Shown here one piece after another: positions 21,507-27,970 of a stretch of 64,000 nt of DNA (its first letter is position 1; each line of letters starts with the position of its first letter). Made by a program: the position numbers and the translations under genes. The notes beneath the pieces were generated by a model. It saw only the letters and a program-made list of their open reading frames with translations. It was not told the DNA's origin and did no database searches. Origin of the DNA: Glutamicibacter sp. JL.03c (lineage in GTDB: Bacteria > Actinomycetota > Actinomycetes > Actinomycetales > Micrococcaceae); assembly GCF_025854375.1 (NCBI RefSeq), contig NZ_CP107575.1, positions 2,356,001 through 2,420,000 of the forward strand. Direction: 5' to 3'.

Positions 21507-22511
21507 ATGCGCTGGGCAAAGGGCAATCTGAATATCATCCACCTCCGAACCTTGCAGGCAGTCATTCGTGCCGGGTCGCATAGCGCCGCGGCCAAGCAGC
21601 TGGGCTATACGACCTCGGCGGTCTCGCAGCAAATCGCGGCCCTGGAGAAGTCCGCGGGAGTTGAGCTCTTCGAGCGTGGCCCGCGGAACCTCTGGCCCAC
21701 CGCTGCGGGGCTGGCCATGGATGAGCATTCGAATCGGATTCTCAAGCTCGTGGTTGAGGCCGAGGACGATATGGCCAATTACGCCAGCGGCGCCAGCGGG
21801 AGGCTGCGGGTCGCCGCCACAGGAGCGGCCGCGGCACAGCTCATTCCGCGCGCCCTGGCCCGCCTGGCCGCCCAGCACTCCAACATCAATATTTCGGTCC
21901 AGAACGCACGTGAGGGGCGGACCCTCATTGACGACGTCCTGGAAGGCTTCGCCGACCTTGTAATTCTCTACGACTACGATCTGGGGACCCCGCAGTGGCC
22001 CGAGGGACTCGTGGCCCATACGGTGATGGAAGAAGAACTGGTCATGGTTGCCAGCCCCGATTCGGGCACCATCACGACCAGGATTTCCCTGGCCGACTTT
22101 TCCGCAGAACAATGGGTTGCCAATGACCCTGGCTCAGCGGATACCGACTACCTGCTCCAGGCCTGCGAACGCGAAGGCTTCCAGCCTGACATCAAGTACT
22201 TCAGCAACGACTTCGACGTGATCCGCGGCTTTGTCAAGGAGCGGCTCGGCGTCGCTTTGATGCCTGCGCTGGCCCTGGGCATCGACAGGTCGATCCAGAT
22301 GTGCCGAATCAACGCCGGATCGCTCAAGCGCCGGGTGCTTGTGGCGCACCGATCCTCGGACTCGAACCAGCTGCTGCCAGCTACGCTGGCCGCCCTGCAG
22401 GACGCCGCCGAGGAATTTCTGCAATGGACCAGGACAGCGTTCCTCGAGCCGCAGGAAACTCCGCTCGGTGCCATCGGCGAGCGCATCAGTTCATGCGAGG
22501 ATCCCGGCTAG
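21507..22511 (+). CDS. LysR-family transcriptional regulator
   Basis: 334 residues. The N-terminal winged helix-turn-helix reads LRTLQAVIRAGSHSAAAKQLGYTTSAVSQQIAALEKSAGVELFERG, followed by the periplasmic-binding-like effector domain (GRLRVAATGAAAAQLIPRAL, ADLVILYDYD, DVIRGFVKERLGVALMPAL). It precedes the flavoprotein dehydrogenase operon in the same direction, with a 311-bp gap that probably carries the controlled promoter. It is likely the local activator responding to the operon substrate, which is inferred from position. Confidence 0.9.
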   Translation: MRWAKGNLNIIHLRTLQAVIRAGSHSAAAKQLGYTTSAVSQQIAALEKSAGVELFERGPRNLWPTAAGLAMDEHSNRILKLVVEAEDDMANYASGASGRLRVAATGAAAAQLIPRALARLAAQHSNINISVQNAREGRTLIDDVLEGFADLVILYDYDLGTPQWPEGLVAHTVMEEELVMVASPDSGTITTRISLADFSAEQWVANDPGSADTDYLLQACEREGFQPDIKYFSNDFDVIRGFVKERLGVALMPALALGIDRSIQMCRINAGSLKRRVLVAHRSSDSNQLLPATLAALQDAAEEFLQWTRTAFLEPQETPLGAIGERISSCEDPG

Positions 22512-22774
22512 CGCCTTCCTTGGGACTGCCACCGGCATTCATGGAGCTCTAGCGCCGCGCCGATGTGCGCCGCGTAACATTCTGGTAAAAGCGCCCTGCC
22601 GGCTTACGACGAACCGTGCCAGGCAGGCAGCAGCGGGCACCGCGCGCCAGCATGATCGGCCGAAAACCCGCGAAGTTTTGTGGCCTGCGTGCCGCGTTGA
22701 AACCCAGCGACAGTTTTCCTCGACTCCCTTGCCACCTTTTCTGTTGCTCGCCAGCTTGTAAGCTTCCGATGATT

Positions 22775-22801
22775 CGCGGACATTTGATTCATCAGTCCGC
22801 G
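22775..22801. promoter_or_regulatory. Inverted repeat before the dehydrogenase operon
   Basis: CGCGGAC and GTCCGCG form a perfect 7-bp inverted repeat with a 13-nt spacer. It ends 10 bp before the AGGAG ribosome binding site of the BFD-like gene. It may be an operator or a leader hairpin. The remainder of 22512-22822 contains no gene that I can support. Confidence 0.4.
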
Positions 22802-22822
22802 CACATCGAAAGGAGAATCGGC

Positions 22823-23113
22823 ATGAGCGATCCAACGATTTGCCGTTGCGAGGAAGTCCCGCTGTCGATCATCACATCCTGTCTGGCGGCCGCAACGGGA
22901 CCGATCAGCCTCCGGGAAATCAAGCTGCAGACACGTGCCGGCATGGGAATTTGCCAGGGCCGCACCTGCGCCCCGCTCCTGGGCCGCATTGTCGAAGGCT
23001 CTGATCGCGTTCTCGCCCAGGATGGGGCGTGGACGCGGAACAACCCGCTGCGCCCCATCTCCCTGGCCGACCTGGCCGAGGACCCCGCGGCTTGGGATGA
23101 GGCGGATCGCTGA
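22823..23113 (+). CDS. Stand-alone BFD-like [2Fe-2S] protein
   Basis: 96 residues starting MSDPTICRCEEV after AGGAG. The cysteine pattern C-R-C ... GICQGRTC is the Fer2_BFD signature (CxC, ~33 residues, CxxxxC). In HcnB-type and related amino-acid dehydrogenases this domain normally forms the C-terminus of the FAD/NAD-fold subunit. Here it is a separate first gene, and the flavoprotein at 23431 lacks it. Its probable role is to relay electrons between the flavin subunits. The stop overlaps the next start (TGATGA region). Confidence 0.85.
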   Translation: MSDPTICRCEEVPLSIITSCLAAATGPISLREIKLQTRAGMGICQGRTCAPLLGRIVEGSDRVLAQDGAWTRNNPLRPISLADLAEDPAAWDEADR

Positions 23114-23427
23114 TGAAACGCATCGAGAATCATCCCGTTCTGGGTCCGCTGGCCAAGAATCCAGTGGACTTCGTATTCAACGACCAGCCCTACACCGCTA
23201 TCGAAGGCGACTCCGTGGTGTCCGCATTGCTGGCTAATGACATCCGGGCGCTGCGCCGCACCAGGGGCACCGGGCAGCAACGCGGCGTGTACTGCGGGAT
23301 CGGGCATTGCTACGAATGCCGGTTGACCGTTGACGGCGATCCCGGTGTCCGGGCCTGCCTGACGCCGGTCGCCGATGGGATGATCCTGGCCTCGCCCGAT
23401 GACCGCCGCGCCGAAGGGGATGGGTAA
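23113..23427 (+). CDS. [2Fe-2S] ferredoxin-type subunit of amino-acid dehydrogenase
   Basis: 104 residues. A plant-type ferredoxin fold with GVYCGIGHCYECRLTVDG...RACLTPV, giving four cysteines in CxxxxCxxC...C spacing, plus the early FNDQPYTAIEGDSVVSALLA strand typical of HcnA/SoxA-like small subunits. The family acts as the gamma or A subunit in membrane-associated hydrogen cyanide synthase, opine oxidases and D-hydroxyproline or proline dehydrogenases. It overlaps the BFD gene by 1 bp and is 3 bp from the next gene, so the subunits are co-expressed. Confidence 0.85.
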   Translation: MKRIENHPVLGPLAKNPVDFVFNDQPYTAIEGDSVVSALLANDIRALRRTRGTGQQRGVYCGIGHCYECRLTVDGDPGVRACLTPVADGMILASPDDRRAEGDG

Positions 23428-23430
23428 AGC

Positions 23431-24645
23431 ATGTATGACTTGGCAATTATCGGGGCCGGCCCGGCTGGTCTGAGCGCGGCGATTGTGGCCGCGCGGGCAG
23501 GTGCCACCGTGATCGTCATTGACGAGAATACGGAACCTGGCGGGAGGCTGCTGGGGCAGCTGCATCAGGAAGCCTCTGGCTCGTGGTGGATCGGCAAGGA
23601 TGAAGCGAGCACGTTGGCCTTGCAAGCCCGCGATGCGGGAGCCACCCTTCGCCTGGCCACCAAGGTATGGGCCCTGTCCCCCGGATGGGTTCTGTCCCTC
23701 GACGGTGCAGAGCAGATCATGGCCAGCAACCTGCTGGTTGCCACCGGGGCGGCAGAACGCGCCGTACCCATTCCGGGCTGGACGCTTCCCGGCGCCATGG
23801 CCATAGGTGCTGCGCAAACACTGACCAACTACTATCGGGTGTTCCCGGGCCAGCGCATCGCCATCATCGGGGTTGATCCGTTGTCGTTGTCGGTAGCCAG
23901 TGAATTGGCATTGTGCGGTGCCGACGTTGTCGGGATCTTCCTGCCCAGCCCCGGGGAATTCAGCATGGACCGCGCCATGCCGGAAAAGGTGCTCGGCTAC
24001 CTCTCCTCCATGTCCGCCATCGCGCCCAACCCGCTGCTGAAATTCGCCGGGAAGATCATGCAGGCCCACGCCGCCCGGAACCTGGCCGCCCGCCTCTTCC
24101 CGCGGCGTGGCGTCACGATGCTCGGCACCCGGCTGCACCTGCGGCAGGCCGTCACCCAGATCCTGGGTGAGGACAGCGTGCGCGGCATTCGCGTCCACGA
24201 CCTGACAGCCGGTGGGAAGCTCGCCGGCCGCTCAAGGGATATTCCGGTCGACTGCGTATGCATTTCCGGCGGCCTGTATCCATTGCAGGAACTCACAGCG
24301 GGGTGTGCAACCGGATCGATTAGCGAGCTTGGCGGTACCGTTCCGTTATACAGCCGCGAGCTGGAGACCAGCCGCGAGTCGCTTTTCGCCGCGGGAAACA
24401 CGATCGGAATCGAAAGTGCCAAGGTCGCCATGGCCCAGGGCCGGCTAGCGGGAACTTCCGTGGCCTGCCGTCTCGGACTCGCTACCCCGGAACAGGTCGA
24501 TGCGGCGGTTGCCAGCGTTGAGCATGCTCGCCAGTCCAGCGAGTTCTCCTTCGAACCCCAGGTACGCGTGGGGCGGCAACGTGCCGACGCGCTGTGGAAT
24601 GCGCATTCGGATAGCCAAGCGGCCAACCGGCAGGGGGTGCTGTGA
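23431..24645 (+). CDS. FAD-dependent oxidoreductase subunit (HcnB/OoxA-like)
   Basis: 404 residues. An N-terminal FAD Rossmann motif DLAIIGAGPAGLSAAIVAARAG is followed by DENTEPGGRLLGQ. A second nucleotide-binding stretch, QRIAIIGVDPLSLSVASELALCG (from about residue 147), marks the pyridine-nucleotide-disulphide reductase-like fold. FAAGNTIGIESAKVAMAQGRLAG is the C-terminal FAD signature. Members form the alpha subunit of heteromeric amino-acid or opine dehydrogenases. The usual C-terminal BFD domain is absent because it is encoded separately at 22823. The stop overlaps the next gene by 4 bp. Confidence 0.85.
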   Translation: MYDLAIIGAGPAGLSAAIVAARAGATVIVIDENTEPGGRLLGQLHQEASGSWWIGKDEASTLALQARDAGATLRLATKVWALSPGWVLSLDGAEQIMASNLLVATGAAERAVPIPGWTLPGAMAIGAAQTLTNYYRVFPGQRIAIIGVDPLSLSVASELALCGADVVGIFLPSPGEFSMDRAMPEKVLGYLSSMSAIAPNPLLKFAGKIMQAHAARNLAARLFPRRGVTMLGTRLHLRQAVTQILGEDSVRGIRVHDLTAGGKLAGRSRDIPVDCVCISGGLYPLQELTAGCATGSISELGGTVPLYSRELETSRESLFAAGNTIGIESAKVAMAQGRLAGTSVACRLGLATPEQVDAAVASVEHARQSSEFSFEPQVRVGRQRADALWNAHSDSQAANRQGVL

Positions 24646-25817
24646 TGGACTCGGCTGATGCTGTTGTTATCGGTGCCGGTGTCATCGGGACCTCCATTGC
24701 CTTTAGGCTTGCCCAGCAGGGACGCGAGGTCATCGTCGTAGAGCAAGTCGGACCGGGCTCAGGAGCCTCGGGGTCCTGCGACAAGGCCATCTTCCTGCAG
24801 TCCAAGCGCCCCGGGATCCACATGGAGCTGGCGCTGGCCAGCCGACGGATGTACGACTCCCTGGGTGCGGAACTCGATGCCGACATCGAGCTGAAGGGCG
24901 ATGGCGGAATGGTGGTCATTGAGAGCGCTGAACAACTTGAGTTCATGAAAGGCTTCATCGGCCAGCAGCAGTCTGCGGGGATCTCGGTAGAGCTGCTCGA
25001 TGCAGCGCAGACTCGCGAACGTCAGCCCTGCATTTCGCACCACGTCCTTGGCGCTTCACATAGCCCAGACGATGCAGAAGTCAATCCCCTGGCGCTGAAT
25101 GCTGCTTTCTATCGCGCCGCATTGCGCCTTGGCGCGCGATTCCAAACCCATACTGAAGTCATCGCCATCGACTCGCAGCACGGAAGAATTACCGGACTCA
25201 CCACGACTCGGGGGCAAATTGCCGCGCCCGTGGTGATCAATGCTGCCGGTCCGCAGGCACGGCATGTAGGAGCACTAGCCGGTGTAGAGGTGCCGGTGGA
25301 GCCTCGGCGCGGAACGATCTTGATCTCCGAAGCCTTGCCGCACCTTGTTCATGGCAACGTGCTCTGCGCGCAATATATCGCTGCCAAGCACCTGGCATCG
25401 GTCAATCCAGAAAACGCGCCGCCATTTGGCATCGGGCTCTCGCTTGGCCAAACTGACTCCGGGAACCTGCTCATCGGCGGAAGCCGCCAGTTCACCGGAT
25501 TCGACAAGCCCCAAGGTGTCGAAGTGATGAGGGCGATCGCCAAGCATGCCGTCCGGCTGGTTCCAAGCCTGCGGGACACACAAATTATCCGCTCGATGAC
25601 CGGCTTCAGGCCTTCAACCGGCGATGGATTGCCCATTATCAGCACGGTGCCGGAATTGACCGGATACGTGGTTGCCGCTGGACACGAAGGCGACGGCATT
25701 GCGCTGGCTCCGATCACCGGGAGCCTGGTCGCAGAACTGCTGGAAGCTGGCCAACCGCGTTCGGCCTTCCTCCCGGCACTGTCGATTGACCGCTTCTCAG
25801 ATACTGCCGTGTCCTGA
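24642..25817 (+). CDS. FAD-dependent amino-acid/opine dehydrogenase catalytic subunit (HcnC/DAO-like)
   Basis: 391 residues of the DAO (D-amino-acid oxidase/glycine oxidase) fold. ADAVVIGAGVIGTSIAFRLAQQG is the FAD Rossmann motif, VINAAGPQARHVGALAG is the conserved second FAD contact, and MTGFRPSTGDGLPII...AGHEGDGIALAPITG is the C-terminal cofactor-binding region. This subunit should oxidise the C-N bond of the substrate. Glycine (as in HcnABC), D-hydroxyproline, D-amino acids or an opine are all compatible. It overlaps the preceding gene by 4 bp. Confidence 0.85.
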   Translation: MMDSADAVVIGAGVIGTSIAFRLAQQGREVIVVEQVGPGSGASGSCDKAIFLQSKRPGIHMELALASRRMYDSLGAELDADIELKGDGGMVVIESAEQLEFMKGFIGQQQSAGISVELLDAAQTRERQPCISHHVLGASHSPDDAEVNPLALNAAFYRAALRLGARFQTHTEVIAIDSQHGRITGLTTTRGQIAAPVVINAAGPQARHVGALAGVEVPVEPRRGTILISEALPHLVHGNVLCAQYIAAKHLASVNPENAPPFGIGLSLGQTDSGNLLIGGSRQFTGFDKPQGVEVMRAIAKHAVRLVPSLRDTQIIRSMTGFRPSTGDGLPIISTVPELTGYVVAAGHEGDGIALAPITGSLVAELLEAGQPRSAFLPALSIDRFSDTAVS

Positions 25818-25847
25818 ACGAAGAGCCACTATTAAGGAGGCAACCCA

Positions 25848-27305
25848 ATGCTGGTTGTAGTAATACCGATGACGTTGCTCTTCGTCATCGCACTGGTGAA
25901 GAAGATCCCGGTGATCGGTGGCGACATTCGTGCTGCCTTGCTGGTCGCGGCCCTGGCCGCAGGACTCATTGGCGGTTTGGACCCGGCCCAATGGGCCCTT
26001 GCCATCATCGATGGTGTGGATCGGCTCGCGTGGGTTATCGCCCTGTCGATTGTCGGAAGCGTTTATGCCGAGTCCCAAGTCAGGCTGGGTACCATGGAAA
26101 CCACCCTGCTCGGTCTGAAGGCCTTGTTCGGAAAGTCGCCGCGGGCCTTGATCACTGCGGTATTCATCACCTTGATCCTGGCCGGGTCGCTGCTGGGCGA
26201 TGCCATCGCTGCAGCCACTGTCATTGGCTTCTTCGTGATTCATTCACTAAGCCAGCTCAATATCAAGCCGGTGCAAATCGGCATGATCATCCTGTTCGGT
26301 GCCTCCATCGGTTCGATCATGCCGCCCATTTCGCAGGGTGTTTTCCTGGCTTCATCTCTGGTGGGCACCGACCCTACGCCGGTGACCAGAATCGCCTACA
26401 TCACCGTAGGCATTGGTGCCGCCTTGGCAATCCTGGAGTCCTATCGCTTTGTGCGGAACAAGCGAGGGCGCCTGGCCGGCCCGGCGGCAGCCGTCAAGAT
26501 TCCGGCAGGCAGCGTGAGCGCTTCAGGCAATGAGCAGTTCAGCGCGGATGCAAGCCAGAAGTCCCGCCAGCTAGATGAAGTGGACACCGGGTTCAGGGCG
26601 TTTGCGCAGCTGGCCAAGCGACGCTGGATGACCATGATCCCGTTGATGATCCTCATTGTCATTGTCTTGCTGAATACCGGATTCTCCTACAATGTCTTCA
26701 CCGAACTGCCAGTGCTGGGTAACGTCACAGCGTGGATGCTGGCTGTCCCCATCATCAAGGGGCTGGCCTTCCCCGTAGTCCTGGCCATCGTGGTGGCGAT
26801 CATCGTCAGCTTCACGTTCAGAAGCGTCCGCAAGGAGGCCATCGGCACGTTCAAAACAGGGCTCGGCAACGTCAGCGGAACAGTTCAAATCCAGCTGTGC
26901 GCTGCCGTGCTGGTGGGAGTTTTCTACGCCACGGGGGCCATCGACGTGGTGGCCCAAGCAGCCGAATCCCTCTCCGGAACTTCGCTGAAGCTCGGGGGCG
27001 CCGCAGGCATCGTGGGTGTCGGCATGCTGACCGGCTCGCAGACTACCTCGCAAACCGTTCTGGTGACCTTCTTGGGGCCCATTCTGACAGGCATGGGTGT
27101 GGACCCGGTCAATGTGGCCTTGGGCGCGTCGCACATTGCTGCCGCTGGACAGAATATGCCACCGGTCGGGCTTACTGCCTTTGTGGTGTGCGGGCTTGTT
27201 GGTTCTGCGCTGAACATTAGGGTGGACCCCATCAAGGTGATGATTCTGGCCTTGCCGAACTCGTTCTATTTCCTGATTGTTGGTGTATTAATGTGGTTCA
27301 TCTAG
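25848..27305 (+). CDS. DctM-like permease (TRAP large-subunit type)
   Basis: 485 residues with about 12 hydrophobic segments. ITLILAGSLLGDAIAAATVIG and GASIGSIMPPISQGVFLASSLVG resemble the paired re-entrant regions of the DctM/IT superfamily, and a second half contains GVGMLTGSQTTSQT and AAGQNMPPVGLTAF. No DctP binding protein or DctQ small subunit is encoded nearby, so it may work alone or with a distant receptor. A loop rich in Ser/Ala/Gln (about 210-245) separates the two halves. An AAGGAGG ribosome binding site precedes the ATG. It presumably imports the substrate of the adjacent dehydrogenase. Confidence 0.78.
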   Translation: MLVVVIPMTLLFVIALVKKIPVIGGDIRAALLVAALAAGLIGGLDPAQWALAIIDGVDRLAWVIALSIVGSVYAESQVRLGTMETTLLGLKALFGKSPRALITAVFITLILAGSLLGDAIAAATVIGFFVIHSLSQLNIKPVQIGMIILFGASIGSIMPPISQGVFLASSLVGTDPTPVTRIAYITVGIGAALAILESYRFVRNKRGRLAGPAAAVKIPAGSVSASGNEQFSADASQKSRQLDEVDTGFRAFAQLAKRRWMTMIPLMILIVIVLLNTGFSYNVFTELPVLGNVTAWMLAVPIIKGLAFPVVLAIVVAIIVSFTFRSVRKEAIGTFKTGLGNVSGTVQIQLCAAVLVGVFYATGAIDVVAQAAESLSGTSLKLGGAAGIVGVGMLTGSQTTSQTVLVTFLGPILTGMGVDPVNVALGASHIAAAGQNMPPVGLTAFVVCGLVGSALNIRVDPIKVMILALPNSFYFLIVGVLMWFI

Positions 27306-27970
27306 GTACCCTAGGGGTGCTCATGCTGGATACCTCATTCCGTCGGATCCGCGGCGACATCGGCAATCCGGCATCGTTCAGCTACCCGGTAATCCATGCC
27401 ACCGTCCCGCATGCGTCAGTGAACCGGGTCGTGGAAGAACCTGATGAAGAACTGATCACGTTGTTTATTGACAGCGGTCGGGAATTGGAGCGTCAAGGTG
27501 CCACGGCCATTACGACCAGCTGCGGTTTTCTCGCCAAGTTCCAATTGGAAATCCAATCCGGGCTGGACGTTCCCTTCAGATCGTCGAGCCTGCTGCAAAT
27601 CCCCGCAGCACAGGCGAGGCATGGAAATGTTGGCGTCATCACCGCCAAGGAGTCCAGCCTTGGCCTGGACCACTTCCTAGGTGCTAGATGCACAGGGAAA
27701 CCTGCAGCAGTTGCCGGCATGGATTCCTCCCCGGCGTTCACCAGCAGCATCATCGAGCAGACCGCAGCATTGGACGAAGCGGCCATACGATCCGAAGTCA
27801 TCGCCGTGGCCCGGGAACTGGTCCGGGACAATCCAGAGCTCGACGCCATAGTTTTGGAATGCACCAACCTGCCGCCGTACGCACAGGACGTGCGCAATGT
27901 GACCCGGCTGCCGGTCTACGATGCTCTTACCATGTGCAACGAGCTGATGGCGGCGCCGGGCGCAATTTAA
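27293..27970 (+). CDS. Aspartate/glutamate racemase-family protein
   Basis: 225 residues from a GTG that overlaps the permease gene by 13 bp. LGVLMLDTSFRRIRGDIGNP is the start of a distinct Asp/Glu/hydantoin-racemase-like subgroup. The two catalytic-type cysteines are in TTSCGF (Cys77) and LECTNLPPY (Cys190), the usual pair of cofactor-independent racemases. Placed after a DAO-type dehydrogenase, it probably converts the imported isomer to the one that is oxidised. A decarboxylase or isomerase role cannot be excluded. Confidence 0.8.
   Translation: MVHLGTLGVLMLDTSFRRIRGDIGNPASFSYPVIHATVPHASVNRVVEEPDEELITLFIDSGRELERQGATAITTSCGFLAKFQLEIQSGLDVPFRSSSLLQIPAAQARHGNVGVITAKESSLGLDHFLGARCTGKPAAVAGMDSSPAFTSSIIEQTAALDEAAIRSEVIAVARELVRDNPELDAIVLECTNLPPYAQDVRNVTRLPVYDALTMCNELMAAPGAI

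Follow-up and report, generated by a model that had tools for sequence, protein, structure and literature searches.

In a 64,000-nucleotide stretch of the genome of Glutamicibacter sp. JL.03c (hereafter, the window), a soil-type Micrococcaceae actinobacterium with a single-contig genome of 3.59 Mb, six tightly packed genes behind a LysR-type regulator encode the four subunits of a putative flavin/[2Fe-2S] dehydrogenase, a DctM-like permease, and a racemase-family protein. We read this operon, with a probability of roughly 0.6, as encoding an inducible pathway that breaks down an amino acid of acidic or otherwise anionic character. The novelty lies in a distinct clade of catalytic β subunits placed on a split electron-transfer module, and this catalytic branch is apparently uncharacterized; the split BFD gene, runs of racemase and dehydrogenase genes, and the kinds of enzymes involved were already known. 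In the proposed pathway, the DctM-like carrier would import the compound, the two-cysteine racemase would, judging by its fold and residues, interconvert L and D centers, and the DAO-family β subunit would oxidize the D centre to an imine with flavin adenine dinucleotide (FAD). As in the HcnABC, OdhABC, and PDH relatives, electrons would reach the respiratory chain by way of the FAD-containing α subunit and a pair of [2Fe-2S] subunits, γ and the BFD protein, while the imine would hydrolyze to a 2-oxo acid and ammonia or re-enter metabolism as such. The LysR protein would sense the substrate.

Subunit architecture and conservation of the gene cluster

An earlier, sequence-only reading had described six packed genes after a LysR gene, with overlaps of 1 to 13 bp and gaps of up to 30 bp. 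Open reading frames and Pfam families agree with this for every gene (Table 1), as do the recomputed junctions, which are, in gene order, −1, +3, −4, +30, and −13 bp, the start of the racemase-family gene (GTG 27293) being uncertain. Because these junctions are tight and 311 bp separate the first gene from the end of the LysR gene, on the same strand, the six genes likely form a single transcription unit. A scan of the locus for promoter and terminator consensus sequences gave nothing above chance, an Rfam scan of the locus gave no result, and no conserved palindrome or operator was found upstream of the BFD gene.

Table 1. Regulator and operon features in the window, with flavin-reductase-like genes at three related loci
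Feature	Coordinates	Strand	Evidence or remark
LysR-type regulator	21507..22511	+	PF03466/PF00126; likely inducer-responsive activator of the operon
Intergenic region (311 bp), presumed promoter	22512..22822	+	Shine-Dalgarno-like AAGGAG just 5' of ATG 22823
Separate BFD-like [2Fe-2S] subunit, 96 aa	22823..23113	+	PF04324, 28.1 bits (cutoff 26)
Fer2_4 [2Fe-2S] γ subunit, 104 aa	23113..23427	+	PF13510, 90 bits
FAD α subunit without C-terminal BFD domain, 404 aa	23431..24645	+	PF07992, 86.4 bits
DAO-family FAD catalytic β subunit, 391 aa	24642..25817	+	PF01266, 229 bits
Orphan DctM-like secondary permease, 485 aa	25848..27305	+	PF06808, 37.5 bits (cutoff 23.8)
Asp/Glu/hydantoin-racemase-family protein, PRK07475 subfamily, 225 aa	27293..27970	+	PF01177, 41.4 bits (cutoff 31)
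Flavin-reductase-like gene, locus L073	7982-8578	-	Named by eye
Flavin-reductase-like gene, locus L074	12517-13143	+	Named by eye
Flavin-reductase-like gene, locus L075	12253-12879	+	Named by eye

Judging by their motifs, the four subunits can be assigned to the HcnABC/OdhABC/D-HypDH/PDH group, with the α subunit cut in two; Pfam matches and gene structure thus agree with the two-flavin dehydrogenase of the HcnABC/OoxABC/PDH type, with BFD as a separate first gene, that the sequence-only reading had recognized. According to PMC4575208, heteromeric flavin/[2Fe-2S] dehydrogenases have a pfam01266 β subunit, a cysteine motif in γ, and a BFD motif inside α, and OdhABC is reported to hold FAD, flavin mononucleotide (FMN), and [2Fe-2S]. 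In the window, the BFD-type [2Fe-2S] motif is missing from the 404-aa α subunit and sits on a separate 96-aa protein, whose cysteines (C7-x-C9...C44-x4-C49) are all four invariant in 11/11 aligned proteins and whose profile hits positions 410-491 of 1y56_A, in the C-terminal part of PH1363 (E 2e-7). The γ cysteines (C61-x4-C66-x2-C69-x12-C82) agree with the published C-x4-C-x2-C-x11-12-C; their last spacing is 10 to 14 in six of the ten clade sequences, but not in the four from Brevibacterium. The β subunit carries the N-terminal FAD motif GAGVIG, and its profile finds PH1364 (1y56_B) as the nearest solved structure (E 7.9e-86), followed by glycine oxidases.

Two kinds of characterized enzymes offer themselves for comparison. 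With P. putida OdhABC and Agrobacterium OoxB-C-A, the window shares a DAO β subunit, a small Fer2 γ subunit, an FAD α subunit, and the γ cysteine spacing; it differs in that BFD is a separate protein, the β subunit belongs to a distant clade with R-S-M in place of R-x-W, the transporter is of another kind, and a racemase gene is present (PMC4575208). PH1363/PH1364 of P. horikoshii, the nearest solved relatives of the window's BFD domain and β subunit, form an α4β4-type L-proline dehydrogenase, and Thermococcus profundus has a four-subunit (α-β-γ-δ) L-proline dehydrogenase encoded by pdhA, pdhF, pdhX, and pdhB (PMC4364671). The latter resembles the window enzyme in having four subunits, but both enzymes are archaeal and take L-proline as substrate.

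The same domains also occur in other arrangements. On a Variovorax plasmid (L090 20108-23062), a 984-aa frame matches Fer2, α, BFD, and DAO in series, so that one polypeptide would contain the entire dehydrogenase. In an Armatimonadota metagenome-assembled genome (L040 7736-9155), a BFD gene directly precedes a DAO gene whose product is 40% identical to the window's; tblastn gave no Fer2 or α match in this 17-kb locus.

A search with the window's DAO protein gave β orthologs with an identity of 56 to 72% by tblastn, the next relatives in the scan of named genomes reaching at most 42%. Such orthologs are present in ten genomes of Micrococcaceae and Brevibacterium, namely, that of the window, A. 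mangrovi (L024/L074), G910 (L073), G840 (L075), A. pascens (L030), G961 (L076), G042 (L016), B. aurantiacum (L017/L026), Brevibacterium RIT 803 (L025), and B. casei (L027), where G and L numbers denote genomes and loci. The gene-neighborhood search proposed in the sequence-only reading recovered the dehydrogenase genes in the order BFD-Fer2-α-β in all ten, and the full seven-gene set in seven. Counting the window, the permease gene lies beside the dehydrogenase in nine genomes, the racemase gene in eight, and a LysR ortholog (43 to 53%) in nine, upstream or downstream: it heads the cluster both in the window and in Brevibacterium, and comes last in the three A. mangrovi-group clusters and A. 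pascens. Because the gene order is conserved across genomes, a chance arrangement is excluded.

The distribution of the cluster is patchy. In the large genome searches, four candidates were scored per genome, so that the counts are lower bounds: a DAO match at E ≤ 1e-60 was present in at least 39 of 395 genomes of the host's family, and at least five genomes (the host's own included) reached ≥56% identity, while the permease was found in at least 8 of 396 genomes of the host's order. Of these eight, three hold the full cluster and three the permease alone, the other two having permease and racemase but no dehydrogenase. DAO matches occur in 4/57 genomes of the genus Brevibacterium and in 3/10 of the A. 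mangrovi group. Among the matches listed, the host's own genome was the sole carrier of DAO at class level (394 genomes, E ≤ 1e-75) and of the permease at phylum level (396 genomes). The A. pascens DAO as query gave no match in 15 genomes of another genus, a search made without a positive control. All in all, the cluster looks like a mobile catabolic module. A tRNA-Arg(TCT) gene lies directly before the G961 cluster (L076 7045-7120), which suggests insertion as an island.

Trees of the α and β subunits

Clusters of Bacillus badius, Priestia megaterium, and Paenibacillus cellulositrophicus, labeled as hydroxyproline type from gene context and annotation, show an identical arrangement of the BFD, Fer2, and α genes. 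The separate BFD gene, taken at first as a distinguishing mark of the window's operon, therefore loses that role, since these clusters share the same split module. In the α tree, all 13 split sequences fall together, apart from the 8 others (support 100/100), and this group is retained (99/98) on core columns with the Chloroflexi row left out. A core α tree constrained to unite all hydroxyproline-type α subunits was rejected by the approximately unbiased (AU) test (p-AU 0.0025), this p value and the one below being guides, because some branches are long and the gene structure was known when the groups were named. The split modules of the window and the Bacillota clusters are of common descent.

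The β subunits are grouped differently. Nine hydroxyproline-type β subunits cluster together (99/98, and 99/96 in a second tree that left out three long rows), the window's β clade of ten is supported by 100/100 (93/99 in the second tree), and joining this clade with the Firmicutes β subunits was rejected (p-AU 0.020, again as a guide, second tree). OoxB forms a single long branch of 3.9 to 5.8 changes per column, whose placement is unsure, and does not group with the window's β subunit. Since the α and β trees conflict, the two subunits appear to have different histories: the split electron-transfer set seems to have been combined with two catalytic lineages, and the conflict suggests an exchange of the catalytic subunit. 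Subunit exchange has been reported in Bradyrhizobium (PMC4575208), and an exchange on a split module common to Actinomycetota and Bacillota would extend the idea put forward there. The gene content of the clusters differs as well. In the Firmicutes clusters, the β gene is not directly behind α, genes for PF05544-type racemases, a deaminase, and an aldehyde dehydrogenase are present, and no PF01177 racemase is annotated.

Proposed transport and racemization, and the candidate substrate

The description of the permease as an orphan DctM-like protein was borne out: it scores above the PF06808 cutoff, 13/13 aligned members match this family at E ≤ 0.1, and PF03480, the DctP partner, has no match anywhere in the host genome (a control found it in 6/14 named genomes; DctQ and TAXI-type partners lay outside the search). 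Against NCBIfam dctM it reaches 30.9 bits, below the cutoff of 268, and 4 of the 13 orthologs weakly match CitMHS. No homologs were found on plasmids or among solved structures, and the AlphaFold model is unusable (mean predicted local distance difference test score, 37.6). Because the permease matches the DctM family and some orthologs match CitMHS, its substrate may well be anionic.

The last protein of the operon scores 244.5 bits (cutoff, 231) against PRK07475, a family named “hypothetical protein” in NCBIfam. C77 and C190 are present in 9/9 aligned sequences, including the window's and leaving out that of L018, which together with the racemase-superfamily fold upholds its description as a two-cysteine racemase-family protein. 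Cysteate racemase CuyB (NF052483) was rejected, at 28 bits against a cutoff of 190.

The racemase family is often found beside DAO-family flavoenzymes. A DAO-family gene lies within 6 kb in 9/14 plasmid loci of racemase relatives, compared with 78/900 overlapping control windows; six of these plasmids supplied the controls, with a 50-kb stretch each, of which five hold no match, and all 78 positives come from L121. The corresponding binomial value of 4e-7 is only a guide, because the positives come from one stretch, the control windows overlap, and several loci are from related Rhizobiaceae. The 14 loci comprise the best rows (L087, L088, L089, and L091) and 10 of 12 spread rows (without H95 and H101), 6 of these 10 having a DAO gene; the count leaves out L090, in which the Variovorax racemase relative is about 11 kb from the fused dehydrogenase. 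Importers of the amino-acid ABC or TRAP kind are also present in several of the loci, as are LysR genes. Five alphaproteobacterial loci (L086, L089, L092, L108, and L110) resemble the window in combining an ABC or TRAP importer, a racemase, a DAO-family enzyme, and LysR, but their enzyme is DadA-like with a single subunit and not an iron-sulfur complex. Two Rhizobiaceae loci, on S. meliloti pSymA (L111) and A. tumefaciens pAt (L114), have a β-γ-α dehydrogenase immediately behind a racemase gene of the PF01177 family (36 and 30%, respectively, to that of the window); these loci differ from the window in that β is of the OoxB type, BFD is fused to α, and there is no DctM-like permease match.

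The sequence-only reading knew of no characterized operon with exactly this composition. The literature searched, with subscription titles largely outside its scope, contained no characterized orthologous operon and no orthologous cluster with an assigned substrate.

Taken together, the sequence of import, racemization, and oxidation that had been proposed at the outset is partly supported and probably right in general. The conservation of the cluster, the frequent pairing of the racemase family with DAO enzymes, the invariant cysteines and fold of the racemase-family protein, and the closeness of the β profile to PH1364 speak for it, while the dispensability of racemase and permease and doubt about the racemase's reaction count against the scheme as a whole. 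Several observations weigh on this negative side. The dehydrogenase is kept in B. casei without the racemase and in A. pascens without racemase and permease, and G329 and G252 have permease and racemase but no dehydrogenase (the racemase match of G329 being in two pieces); the three are therefore not obligatorily linked, and racemase and permease are accessories to the dehydrogenase. Five of the 14 racemase loci have no DAO gene. In the β subunit, the R-x-W motif, a putative FMN site (PMC4575208), is altered to R317-S-M319; at the same site, 8/9 hydroxyproline-type β subunits have R-[HS]-Y and one has R-T-Y, while OoxB has R-S-W and L111/L114 have R-[AS]-W. Finally, the top-ranked Foldseek matches of the racemase-like protein are arylmalonate decarboxylases, and maleate isomerase is close as well, so that another reaction is possible for it.

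Among the alternatives, opine catabolism is unlikely but deserves to be considered first. Here the dehydrogenase would cleave the secondary amine of an N-carboxyalkyl amino acid to give an amino acid and a 2-oxo acid, and the racemase would recycle or invert the amino acid. The architecture of the enzyme is that of OdhABC/OoxABC (PMC4575208), and genes of the same racemase family accompany β subunits 39 to 40% identical to OoxB in the two Rhizobiaceae loci; against this, the window's β subunit does not group with OoxB, long-branched and unsure in its place as the latter is, and neither an ABC importer nor an ornithine cyclodeaminase or RidA gene is among the cluster's reading frames. Somewhat less probable still is that the PF01177 protein does not racemize the substrate of the dehydrogenase at all but acts on a downstream product as a maleate-isomerase- or decarboxylase-like enzyme, to which the Foldseek ranking would fit and against which the company of DAO genes argues.

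A special case of the amino-acid route, to which we give a small chance, is that the D centre of 2,6-diaminopimelate or piperidine-2,6-dicarboxylate is oxidized to tetrahydrodipicolinate, which would enter the lysine pathway. The sole hint at a substrate comes from A. pascens, where lysine/diaminopimelate genes surround the dehydrogenase (L030 972-12927). There, the genes for the dehydrogenase and LysR (53%) are flanked on one side by dapD, which is divergent and about 95 bp away, and on the other by dapE, and lysA, dapF, and dapC are their neighbors; the operon, which holds no permease or racemase gene, continues with an aminobutyraldehyde-dehydrogenase-like gene, dapE, and LysR. The enzymes encoded by dapD, dapC, dapE, dapF, and lysA carry out the steps from tetrahydrodipicolinate to lysine. 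Because lysA and dapE, the two genes checked for duplication, each have a second copy elsewhere in the genome, the genes look like a dedicated lysine set; no dapA or dapB is among the called reading frames of the 17-kb locus, and the set looks as if it held the steps from tetrahydrodipicolinate onward but not its formation, as far as these frames show. It is tempting to speculate that a dehydrogenase yielding tetrahydrodipicolinate would complete this set in the one genome concerned. On the other hand, this arrangement is confined to a single genome, no dap gene adjoins any of the nine remaining clusters over the stretches examined, and the aminobutyraldehyde-dehydrogenase-like gene has no role in the scheme. 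It is a bold and rather improbable extension that split BFD, γ, and α form a transferable platform that swaps β subunits, with the window's clade acting on substrates of a new class; this might be the D centre of diaminopimelate or of some related cyclic imino-diacid, made by the PRK07475 protein and feeding tetrahydrodipicolinate into lysine synthesis.

A D-hydroxyproline (or D-proline) dehydrogenase with a nonhomologous epimerase is very unlikely: although the split module is common to the Firmicutes hydroxyproline-type clusters, the separate clade of nine β subunits and the rejected joining of the window's clade with the Firmicutes ones speak against it, as does the lack in the cluster of genes for a PF05544 epimerase, a dihydrodipicolinate-synthase-like deaminase, and an aldehyde dehydrogenase, the sole strong PF05544 gene of the host being about 840 kb away.

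The preferred reading, catabolism of an acidic or otherwise anionic amino acid, gives a testable assignment both for the PRK07475 racemase-family proteins and for a new branch of the opine/proline/hydroxyproline dehydrogenases.

Other neighboring genes

Some further genes near the clusters and the racemase relatives were recorded. In three A. mangrovi-group clusters, a flavin-reductase-like gene, named by eye, is divergent from the BFD gene (Table 1); for the protein from L073, NCBIfam gave no match at E ≤ 1e-20. The same holds for a fructosamine-kinase-like gene near the Brevibacterium clusters, also named by eye and treated as background. Thiamine-pyrophosphate enzymes near some racemase relatives were set aside, having acetolactate-synthase-like scores only, below the cutoffs. 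A saccharopine-dehydrogenase-like gene, named by eye, adjoins the Variovorax racemase relative in a single case, and a UbiX-family flavin prenyltransferase gene directly precedes the racemase and dehydrogenase genes on S. meliloti pSymA (L111 5390-9473). On a Ruegeria plasmid (L092 7696-12031), a PRK07475 racemase gene lies beside a CuyA-like gene (337 bits, under the cutoff of 450), a TSUP transporter gene, a DadA-like gene, and RidA, a neighborhood hinting at a sulfonated amino acid.

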